This document shows, in pieces, positions 17,540 through 21,011 of a stretch of DNA of 64,000 nucleotides. Numbering within the stretch: the stretch's first letter is position 1; every line of letters begins with the position of its first letter. The notes beneath the pieces are model-generated. The model worked only from the letters and a program-made list of their open reading frames with translations, was not told the DNA's origin and made no database searches. The DNA comes from Brevibacillus brevis. GTDB lineage: Bacteria; Bacillota; Bacilli; Brevibacillales; Brevibacillaceae. The DNA is taken from positions 2,119,501 to 2,183,500 of the forward strand of contig NZ_CP041767.1 in assembly GCF_022026395.1 (NCBI RefSeq). The letters are read 5' to 3'. The translations under genes and the position numbers were made by a program.

Positions 17540-17613
17540 TACCGTTAGTGTATTTTTTGCGAGGCGCAATCTGAACGTTTGAATGGATTCGCGTGGGAGG
17601 GAACGAACAACAC

Positions 17614-19431
17614 ATGGATCGTCGTGAAAGACAAAAAAGGATACGAAATTTTTCCATCATCGCCCACATTGACCATGGAAAGTCGACGCTGGCAGACCGC
17701 ATTTTGGAGCTGACCGGTGCTTTGACTGCACGTGAGATGGAAGCCCAGTTTCTTGACACGATGGAGCTGGAAAAAGAGCGCGGGATTACAATTAAGCTGA
17801 ATGCCGTGCGTTTGAACTATAAAGCAGATGACGGTGAGGAATACATTCTCCACCTGATTGACACTCCTGGGCACGTCGACTTTACGTATGAAGTATCCCG
17901 CAGTTTGGCTGCCTGTGAAGGGGCTATTCTCGTCGTGGATGCGGCACAAGGGATCGAAGCCCAGACATTGGCTAACGTGTATTTAGCGTTGGACAGCAAT
18001 CTGGAGATCATTCCAGTTATTAACAAGATCGACCTGCCGAGCGCAGAGCCTGAGCGCGTGAAGCAAGAGGTTGAGGACGTGATCGGTCTGGATGCCAGCG
18101 ATGCGGTTTTGACTTCTGCCAAAGCGGGTATCGGGATTAAGGAAGTACTGGAAGCTGTTGTGCAAAAAGTACCTGCTCCAGAGGGAGATCCGGATGCACC
18201 TCTCCAAGCTTTGATTTTCGACTCCTATTTTGATGCGTATCGCGGCGTTATTGCCTCCATTCGTGTCATTAACGGAACCTTGAAAAAAGGTATGAAGATC
18301 AAGATGATGGCGACAGGCAAGTCGTTCGAGGTAACCGAAATCGGTACATCGACTCCACGCCAAACACAAGTAGAAGAATTAACGGTTGGAGATGTAGGCT
18401 ACGTAGCTGCTTCCATTAAAACAGTGGGAGACACCAGTGTGGGGGATACCATTACAGATGCAAATCGCCCTGCACCTGAACCGCTACCAGGTTATCGCAA
18501 AATCAACCCGATGGTTTTCTGCGGTTTGTACCCAATTGAAACGAACGAGTACAATGATTTGCGCGATGCATTGGAAAAGCTTCAGCTAAACGATGCGTCC
18601 TTGCAGTTTGAACCGGAGACTTCCCAAGCACTTGGCTTTGGTTTCCGTTGCGGTTTCTTGGGTCTTCTGCATATGGAGATCATTCAAGAGCGCATCGAAC
18701 GGGAATTCAACATTAACTTGATTACGACCGCGCCGAGCGTTATTTACCGCATTACCAAAACGAACGGCGAAGTATTCGAAATCGACAACCCGTCCAAAAT
18801 GCCGGAAGCGCAAAAGATCGAAATGGTCGAGGAGCCTTACGTTACGGCGACTGTTATGGTACCGAAAGAATACGTCGGTGATGTTATGCAGTTGTGCCAA
18901 GGTAAACGCGGTGAGTTTCTTGACATGCAGTATATGGGTGAGAACCGTGTGCAGCTGAAGTACGACATGCCTTTGTCGGAGATCGTTTACGATTTCTTTG
19001 ACATGCTGAAGTCGGGTACAAAAGGCTACGCATCCTTTGACTACGAGCTAGGTGGGTACAAAGCATCCAAGCTGGTGAAAATGGATATTCTCCTCAACGG
19101 CGAAGTGGTGGATGCTCTGTCGTTTATCGTTCACAAAGACACGGCTTATCCTCGTGGAAAAGTCATCTGCGAAAAGCTGAAGGAATTGATTCCGCGTCAG
19201 CAATTCGAGGTGCCGATTCAAGCGACTATCGGACACAAGGTTGTTGCTCGTGAAACGATCAGTGCGTTGCGTAAAAACGTTCTTGCTAAATGTTACGGCG
19301 GGGACATTTCGCGTAAACGTAAGCTGCTCGAAAAGCAAAAAGAAGGAAAGAAGCGCATGAAGTCTGTTGGTTCCGTAGAGGTACCGCAAGAAGCATTTAT
19401 GGCTGTATTGCGCATGGATGATAAGAAGTAG
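17614..19431 (+). CDS. lepA: Elongation factor 4 (back-translocating GTPase LepA)
   Basis: This 605-residue ribosomal GTPase catalyses back-translocation or remodelling of stalled ribosomes. It shows G1 AHIDHGKST, switch [11 protein letters not shown]4 NKIDLPSA, and the LepA-specific C-terminal domain with [26 protein letters not shown] precedes the ATG at 17614 by 11 bases; a GTG at 17593 overlaps the ribosome site. The length equals the family norm. lepA followed by hemW and hrcA is the conserved Bacilli order. Confidence 0.97.
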
Positions 19432-19455
19432 GCCTGACCTTGTGTCAGGTCTTTT
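19431..19455 (+). terminator. Intrinsic terminator after lepA
   Basis: GGCCTGAC (19431-19438) pairs with GTCAGGTC (19444-19451) around a five-base loop, followed by T residues. It overlaps the lepA stop by one base. Confidence 0.75.
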
Positions 19456-19470
19456 CCATTAAAAGCGGTG

Positions 19471-19634
19471 GTCAAAAAGTCGGCTTTTGATCACGAAGTA
19501 GAAAAGAAAGTTGATTCGGCGTCGAAACTGGCGTTCACCTTCGAAGTCCGGTGCTCATGTAGGTCCCCTACACTCCGCTCCTCCTTCTTCAGGTTCTCGC
19601 CACTTTCTCGGTGCTGAAAAGCCGATTTTTTGAC
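19471..19634. repeat. Tandem inverted-repeat element, copy 1
   Basis: This 164-bp unit is bounded by 18-base terminal inverted repeats with one mismatch: GTCAAAAAGTCGGCTTTT at 19471-19488 and AAAAGCCGATTTTTTGAC at 19617-19634. The interior has a small hairpin GTAG-GTCCC-CTAC and no coding potential. Copy 2 follows 181 bases later. The structure resembles a miniature inverted-repeat element or a structured RNA/DNA repeat; I do not recognise a named family. No transposase is nearby. Confidence 0.9.
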
Positions 19635-19651
19635 TTTTATTGAAAAAGGTT

Positions 19652-19816
19652 GTCAAAAAGTCGGCTTTTGATCACGAAGTCATTTATGAAAGTTGATTCG
19701 GCATCGAAACTGGCGTTCACCTTCGAAGTCCGGTGCTCATGTAGGCCCCCTACACTCCGCTCCTCCTTCTTCAGGTTCTCGCCATTTTCTCGGTGCTGAA
19801 AAGCCGATTTTTTGAC
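19652..19816. repeat. Tandem inverted-repeat element, copy 2
   Basis: This 165-bp second copy has the same terminal inverted repeats (19652-19669 and 19799-19816). It differs from copy 1 in a short variable stretch around base 30 of the unit and at three single positions outside it. The spacer TTTTATTGAAAAAGG after copy 1 is also repeated nearly exactly after copy 2 (one change), so the duplicated unit is about 181 bases. The two copies fill the space between the lepA terminator and the hemW ribosome site, and nothing else is seen there. Confidence 0.9.
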
Positions 19817-19868
19817 TTTTATTGAAATAGGCATTCCAAAAGTCGTTATTATTAGGAGGGAAAGGGAC

Positions 19869-21011
19869 ATGATGCCACAATCGGTTTACATTCACATTCC
19901 CTTTTGTACGAATAAATGTTACTACTGTGACTTCAACTCATTTGTAACGAACAATCCGCAGCTCATTTGGGATTACTTAGACGCATTGAAAAGCGAAATG
20001 GAGATCACCTTCAGTCAGCAGCCGATCGAGCAGGTGAAAACGATTTTTGTCGGCGGAGGGACACCTACGTTTCTCGATCATGCCCAAATGCGCGCGTTTT
20101 TGGAAATGGTACAAAAGCAATTGGGCAAGTACTTGGCGGATGATATCGAGTTTTCGATGGAAGCGAATCCGGGAACGACAGACGTGGAAAAGCTGCGGAT
20201 CATGCGTGAGCTGGGTGTCAATCGGCTGAGCTTTGGTGTGCAGTCCTTTGACGACGCGCTCCTAAAACGACTGGGACGAATCCATGACCAGGAAGCAGTG
20301 TATCGCAGTATCGACAATGCGAAAAAAGTAGGCTTCGACAACTTCAGCATCGACCTGATGTTTGGATTGCCGGATCAGACACTCGACATTTTCCGCCAAA
20401 CATTGGACAAGGCATTTGGGCTAGGCACCACCCATTTTTCTGCGTACAGTCTCAAGGTGGAAGAGAACACGCTGTTCCACACCCTTTACCAAAAGGATCA
20501 GCTGCCACTGCCATCTGAAGAGACGGAGCTCGAGATGTACATGGTATTAATAGAAGAGATGGAGCGGCATGGGTACAAGCAGTATGAAATCAGCAATTTT
20601 GCAAAACCGGGCTTTGAGAGCAAACATAATAAAACCTATTGGCTCAATCGTGAATACTATGGGTTGGGTGCAGGTGCCCACGGCTATGTGTGCGGCCACC
20701 GACACGTGAATGCAGGCCCGCTTGCGATTTACTTGCAGAAGTGCAAGGAAGGGCTGCCGCGTGTAGAACAATTCGAGGTACCGCGCGAGGATGCCATGGA
20801 GGAACAGATGATTTTGGGACTGCGGTTGAGAGAAGGAGTTGATCTTTCGGCGTTTGCTTCCCGTTTTGGCGCAACTGTTCATGATGTTTTTGGGACAATA
20901 ATAGAAGAAGAGGTAGCCAAAGGAATGCTGGAAGAACAGGACGGGTTTTTGAAGCTGACGAAGCAGGGGCTTCCGCTCGGAAATGAGGTATTTGCGCGCT
21001 TTCTCCGTTGA
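19869..21011 (+). CDS. hemW: Heme chaperone HemW (radical SAM, HemN family)
   Basis: The 380-residue radical SAM protein has the cluster motif C-x3-C-x2-C (CTNKCYYC, Cys13/17/20), GGGTPTFL and SMEANPGTTD. The N-terminal cysteine of coproporphyrinogen dehydrogenases is not seen, which favours HemW, a heme-trafficking protein. TAGGAGGG at 19853-19860 sets the ATG at 19869; an immediately following ATG is also possible. A longer frame from 19812 starts inside repeat copy 2 and is rejected. Conserved neighbours lepA and hrcA support the call. Confidence 0.93.
   Translation: MMPQSVYIHIPFCTNKCYYCDFNSFVTNNPQLIWDYLDALKSEMEITFSQQPIEQVKTIFVGGGTPTFLDHAQMRAFLEMVQKQLGKYLADDIEFSMEANPGTTDVEKLRIMRELGVNRLSFGVQSFDDALLKRLGRIHDQEAVYRSIDNAKKVGFDNFSIDLMFGLPDQTLDIFRQTLDKAFGLGTTHFSAYSLKVEENTLFHTLYQKDQLPLPSEETELEMYMVLIEEMERHGYKQYEISNFAKPGFESKHNKTYWLNREYYGLGAGAHGYVCGHRHVNAGPLAIYLQKCKEGLPRVEQFEVPREDAMEEQMILGLRLREGVDLSAFASRFGATVHDVFGTIIEEEVAKGMLEEQDGFLKLTKQGLPLGNEVFARFLR

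Follow-up and report, generated by a model that had tools for sequence, protein, structure and literature searches.

The gap between lepA and hemW on contig NZ_CP041767.1 of Brevibacillus brevis holds two nearly identical repeat units and no obvious gene, and it raises the question of what such units are and how they came to lie there in tandem. An earlier note on this DNA, made from the letters of the 64,000-nucleotide window (the whole stretch that was analysed), had read them as a miniature mobile element or a family of structured repeats, duplicated in place. Here we describe the units and the wider family to which they belong, and then weigh the processes that may have shaped them.

The unit pair between lepA and hemW

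The gap contains two head-to-tail copies of the element, 95% identical over 158 nt and with a start-to-start distance of 181–182, each bearing inverted arms of 24 nt that are 88% complementary, which bears out the earlier description of tandem copies with terminal inverted repeats. The dimensions first given, about 165 bp with 18-base repeats, fell short: comparison with other copies extends the units 5–7 nt outward of the arms noted at that time, to 176 and 177 bp. The left arms (19471–19494 and 19652–19675) pair with the right arms (19611–19634 and 19793–19816, respectively). The features of the region are as follows.

17593–19431, plus strand: lepA, upstream neighbour, outside the element (ORF of 612 aa, stop at 19431)
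19430–19452, plus strand: intrinsic terminator-like hairpin of lepA (terminator scan)
19466–19641, plus strand: element unit 1, 176 bp (pairwise comparison and family matches; ends from 177-bp copies with target duplications)
19471–19494, plus strand: left inverted arm of unit 1 (self-comparison)
19611–19634, minus strand: right inverted arm of unit 1 (self-comparison)
19642–19646, unstranded: inter-unit spacer GAAAA, 5 nt, at the position of a decayed target duplication
19647–19823, plus strand: element unit 2, 177 bp (pairwise comparison and family matches)
19652–19675, plus strand: left inverted arm of unit 2 (self-comparison)
19793–19816, minus strand: right inverted arm of unit 2 (self-comparison)
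19829–19845, plus strand: probable left-end remnant of a third unit, AGGCATTCCAAAAGTCG against AGGTTGTCAAAAAGTCG (by eye)
19869–21011, plus strand: hemW, downstream neighbour, outside the element (ORF 19812–21011, ATG read at 19869)

The ORFs agree with the placing of the pair between lepA and hemW, and no transposase ORF lies within this stretch; units of 176–177 bp are too short to encode one, and the ORFs listed inside them are mechanical only. lepA is closely matched in all 26 congeners, and its terminator-like hairpin is also found in relatives without the element, the array beginning just 3' of the T run of this hairpin. The repeated spacer seen earlier is real, being the GAAAA between the units. 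Since this spacer and the left flank agree only loosely, the target duplication around the array, which is imperfect, is regarded as old or imperfect. The sequence at 19829–19845 probably derives from a third unit, most of which has been lost, and corresponds to its left end; a similar tail also follows copies in two other genomes (G005 and G013). The right end of each unit (19608–19625 and 19790–19807) is predicted, on the plus strand, to fold as a weak hairpin followed by a T run, in the manner of a terminator. As in the lepA–hemW array (19430–19466), copies at three other loci (L010, L042 and L043) lie directly after or inside intrinsic terminators, that at L010 being placed between an apparent T-box leader terminator and the next gene. 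Within its family the lepA–hemW pair is unremarkable, and it is ageing.

Distribution and diversity of the family

Queried with 170 nt of the element, the 6.16-Mb B. brevis genome gives 13 matches; a 164-nt query gives 14, and about eight are close to full length. The copy count suggested in the earlier note thus places the unit well beyond a single site, both in this genome and among congeners, 12 of 26 of which carry 5–28 matches each while the other 14 have none. Nor does the unit match an Rfam family above the gathering score, the best of 17 weak matches reaching 22.5 bits where the cut-off is 88. Among 398 genomes sampled from the class at least 31 match, in 5 of 145 genera, both lower bounds given that few candidates were scored per genome; one of the five genera is represented solely by a 27-bp stretch. 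In one other genus, a query copy taken from one of five genomes finds 65, 47, 12, 21 and 23 matches across the five. A pattern scan returned at least 119 loci, and the genera among the matches listed are Paenibacillus, Cohnella, Fontibacillus, Chengkuizengella and Brevibacillus. The family is widespread in Paenibacillaceae and Brevibacillus, and in certain lineages a single genome holds tens of copies.

Three plasmid records, all from Paenibacillus, carry the element, and on NZ_CP054613.1, a 2.7-Mb plasmid of Paenibacillus cellulosilyticus, it occurs at 17–21 places. The phage search gave a single match (L220; 22% query coverage, 76% identity), which lies near the record end of Paenibacillus phage Pd_22F (85121–85207); this partial copy might mark a carrier or prophage-edge sequence. 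IMG/VR contains 0 exact matches to the left-arm pattern.

Copies fall into two subfamilies that differ in their interior and have common ends. The existence of additional subfamilies is suggested by Paenibacillus variants of about 216–220 bp and by an array in G395 whose outer ends differ and whose spacing is near 203 (loci L219, L302, L310, L328 and L334). Shortened forms also occur: in several orthologues the interior is deleted and the terminal hairpin retained (L134 against L012/L114; L018 against L124; L121 and L122), and four genomes (G000, G005, G012 and G023; for example G000:C1:1804527–1804584) have a 58-nt form that consists of the arms alone.

The copies are usually intergenic and often lie beside stop codons. 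In a first set of 49 loci, largely from Brevibacillus, 28 are co-directional with both neighbours and 4 counter-directional (16 have mixed neighbours and 1 is undetermined), but in a second set of 62 loci the counts are 26 and 16, with 20 mixed; gene calls in both sets are ORF-based and crude. Co-directionality with genes was accordingly rejected as a family-wide feature.

Element ends, target duplications and empty sites

The flanks of 41 distinct loci place the consensus ends at AGGTTG-TTCAAAAAG ... CTTTTTGAA-CACGCAC, beyond the arms first noted, and show that the 5–6 bases before the element recur after it. The full unit is 177 bp with a TTATAG-like target duplication of 6 bp, the target site leaning to TTWWAG. 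The inverted symmetry of the two ends does not extend to their outermost 6–7 nt. In this first set, made by merging 71 copies to 41 loci by their common flanks, flank identity at the best offsets reaches 0.56–0.58, compared with 0.285 (sd 0.057) when all offsets are taken; a second, separate copy set, based on 80 of the pattern-scan loci, gives 0.61–0.64 against 0.283 (sd 0.072). With the offsets fixed beforehand, the 47 copies that could be anchored, after one of 48 dropped out, from 77 full copies in the second set match at 3.66 of 6 positions, against 2.80 (sd 0.13) when permuted. The other 39 pattern-scan loci were added for a held-out test, in which the 29 of 41 copies anchored match at 3.69 of 6 against 2.97 (sd 0.15), and in either case 0 of 2000 permutations are as high. 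The duplication is perfect (6/6) in 15 of 76 copies.

One locus retains both states of an insertion. The occupied site (L031) reads TTACAG, 177 bp, TTACAG, and two sister genomes have a single TTACAG at the empty site, with an overlap of exactly 6 and flanks that are otherwise 97% identical; both sisters bear other copies of the element. A Brevibacillus reuszeri locus, L268, shares the flanks of L031. For three more loci, uninterrupted sites were found in other genomes that carry the element, their junctions showing a small gap or overlap. From the L031 empty site and these other uninterrupted sites it follows that the element moves, or moved recently. The target duplications and empty sites that the earlier note had proposed to look for thus exist, and together with presence and absence between close relatives they support its reading of a miniature mobile element.

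At the lepA–hemW site itself, occupancy could be judged in the 16 of 26 genomes in which hemW fell inside the fetched stretch. Five are occupied, by a pair in two and by a single unit in three, and 11 are empty, all of these in genomes without any copy of the element.

Tandem arrays

Pairs and larger arrays, up to five-fold, recur with a spacing near 182–187 (184–186 in the second set), approximately that of the element (177) plus the duplication (6), and several spacers within them are duplication-like (TTGAAG in L199, TTATAAG in L184). The tandem pair studied here and the many arrays in relatives bear out the earlier suggestion of duplication in place. Each such array is in effect a natural replicate of how one insertion becomes amplified in tandem, and there are many of them.

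A covarying fold with a strand preference

Folding, another of the checks put forward earlier, places both lepA–hemW units far below dinucleotide shuffles on either strand (z −4.4 to −6.3). The minus strand of unit 1 folds better than the plus strand by 2.0 kcal/mol and that of unit 2 worse by 1.8, and strand preference in these units themselves is not clear. The family is more informative. Minus-strand alignments of the two subfamilies (39 and 27 copies, drawn mainly from 67 kept at 85% identity) yield a consensus hairpin in which 96.4% of cells are paired in each alignment. Two-sided changes occur at 27 of 47 pairs in subfamily 1 and at 30 of 46 in subfamily 2. Covariation is 0.297 in the 39 copies, against 0.119 (sd 0.006) when shuffled, and 0.246 in the 27 copies, against 0.107 (sd 0.006), with 0 of 500 shuffles as high in either; slid controls reach at most 0.072. 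The terminal arms vary in sequence among copies and keep their complementarity. Covariation of a conserved fold, the feature of a structured RNA, is therefore present, and the second half of the earlier suggestion, a structured repeat family, also holds.

Across 93 copies (150 reduced at under 92% identity; the subfamily analysis took 92 of the 93) the minus strand gives the better fold in 90, by a mean of 8.3 kcal/mol; forbidding G.U pairs lowers the mean difference to 3.4 kcal/mol and leaves its sign unchanged. The same strand is favoured in 72 of 77 copies of the second, separate set. At pairs predicted on both strands, one-sided transitions leave a minus-strand G.U 93 times against 30 for the reverse, and the same comparison at unpaired positions gives 112 against 181 (Fisher p 2.6e-12 for paired against unpaired, with copies as counts and relatedness ignored). 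All such cell counts are of copies and not of independent events. In the apical helix, minus-strand G.U pairs are kept in 38/39 and 25/27 copies. Because of this G.U-type asymmetry and the better minus-strand fold, the alignments argue for selection that would act on the minus strand, as RNA or as single-stranded DNA. Strand-specific conservation of a fold in a gene-less transposon makes it testable whether hairpin MITEs move or act via a folded strand, or whether palindrome correction alone is at work.

The search for a mobilising enzyme

A profile scan of 281 loci (1.54 Mb) gave 0 candidates for an autonomous element with the family ends; its 145 partial ends are all unpaired, and the five stretches around end pairs that it included contain 0 long elements. 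Exact end-pattern searches for an autonomous partner covered 26 and then 12 Brevibacillus genomes, followed by 16 Paenibacillaceae. The sole inward, IS-spaced end pair in the 12 Brevibacillus genomes encloses, by eye, an apparent potassium-transport subunit gene and was rejected, and a convincing end pair is absent among the matches listed for the 16 Paenibacillaceae genomes.

The B. brevis genome has 0 matches to either Y1_Tnp (PF01797) or RVT_1 (PF00078), and a resident reverse transcriptase or Y1 transposase was rejected as the mobiliser on this ground; across the 26 genomes the presence of these domains does not track that of the element. A mobiliser may once have been resident and since been lost. 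Multi-copy, group II intron-like reverse-transcriptase genes (10–29 matches) occur in four genomes (G003, G011, G017 and G022), all non-carriers, and element carriers have 0–6 reverse-transcriptase matches.

Explanations for the element and its fold

The units are probably copies of a non-autonomous, MITE-like element, about 177 bp long, whose insertion duplicates 6 bp at AT-rich TTWWAG sites, usually in intergenic DNA. A transposase supplied in trans would recognise the outer ends AGGTTG and CACGCAC, the folded element, or both, and would cut with a 6-bp stagger. The minus-strand hairpin, as RNA or single-stranded DNA, would form part of the life cycle of the element, with selection maintaining its pairing as the arm sequence drifts. 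Once inserted, the element could be copied in tandem together with its repeat, through slippage or unequal crossing-over at the flanking 6-bp repeats. Between lepA and hemW this may have produced the array of two units, which probably had a third at one time and is now decaying. The asymmetric outermost 6–7 nt sit less easily with this account, as they would be unusual for a DDE element. In a variant that we regard as unlikely, the folded single strand would itself be the substrate or messenger: a dedicated protein would recognise the minus-strand hairpin with its conserved G.U pairs and internal loops, and a 6-bp staggered cut would then fix the element. If true, this would be a combination seen in neither classical MITEs nor Y1/REP elements.

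Template-switch correction is an established mutational route for quasi-palindromes, and matched arm changes could be a by-product of such hairpin-templated correction during replication, with no selection on RNA or single strand. Arms that drift yet remain complementary are what this process would leave. It should, however, be strand-neutral and predicts no strand preference, whereas transitions at pairs favour minus-strand G.U by 93 to 30, unpaired sites lean the opposite way and the G.U pairs of the apical helix are conserved; because of this asymmetry pure arm correction is disfavoured, and we hold it to be rather unlikely. A structured non-coding or regulatory RNA (for instance a terminator, an attenuator or a hairpin that stabilises mRNA) maintained because it serves the host, and mobile only in the distant past, would account for the strong covariation, the intergenic copies beside stop codons, the terminator-like T run 3' of the right arm on the plus strand, the loci that retain just the terminal hairpin after internal deletion, and the co-directional excess of the first orientation set (28 against 4 of 49). 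The covarying strand is nevertheless the minus strand, antisense to the neighbours where orientation is biased; that bias is weak in the second set (26 against 16 of 62), presence varies among close relatives, and 14 of 26 congeners lack the element altogether, which leaves a host function as the origin of the fold improbable.

Transposition by way of a folded single strand or an RNA intermediate, of HUH/Y1 or retro type, in place of double-stranded cut-and-paste, appears similarly improbable. The strand-specific fold, the asymmetric outer ends and the tandem arrays are all in keeping with it, but a clean 6-bp target duplication is unexpected for Y1/HUH elements, and neither Y1_Tnp nor RVT_1 has a match in the B. 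brevis genome or tracks the element among the 26 genomes. That the units are REP/BIME-type repeats mobilised by a RAYT transposase is scarcely credible: they are likewise palindromic, intergenic and clustered, but measure 177 bp against 20–40 bp and have target duplications, again with 0 Y1_Tnp matches in B. brevis.

Comparison with known systems

By anatomy the family is a MITE, having no coding capacity, inverted repeats, a 6-bp duplication and dispersed copies with empty sites; of the defining features, only a parent IS was not recovered from the loci and genomes searched. Bacterial MITEs are described as short, gene-less, intergenic and folded, with inverted repeats and target duplications (PMC10969869; PMC3733652). 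QMITE2 of Coxiella and the RUP, NEMIS, ERIC, EFAR and Bcr1 elements resemble our family in being short, gene-less, folded and intergenic. The family differs from these in that a parent IS was not found in the loci and genomes searched, that arm sequence varies between copies with pairing kept, that covariation is strand-biased, and that copies are often tandem with a period of element plus duplication.

REP/BIME sequences with their RAYT transposases are alike in forming intergenic palindromes in clusters; our family is much longer and has target duplications, and a Y1 match is absent from the B. brevis genome. BOX elements are modular, whereas here the whole 177-bp unit is what moves and is duplicated. 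The BOX/SPRITE elements of Streptococcus pneumoniae are named among intergenic folded repeats (PMC10969869), and our family likewise consists of folded repeats in intergenic DNA.

Closest in kind, by description and not by sequence, is bcr1, which is reportedly specific to the Bacillus cereus group. It is a Firmicutes hairpin repeat of 147–167 bp, with a conserved structure in type I (PMC2267715). The excerpts of the three MITE papers (PMC10969869; PMC3733652; PMC2267715), which list Bcr1, EFAR and others, do not name Brevibacillus or Paenibacillus, and no description of the element family was found in open-access PMC text, a scope outside which most subscription journals lie. By open-access PMC text and Rfam, this is a new family of mobile hairpins in which tandem duplication is habitual and the covarying fold is, unusually, strand-specific.
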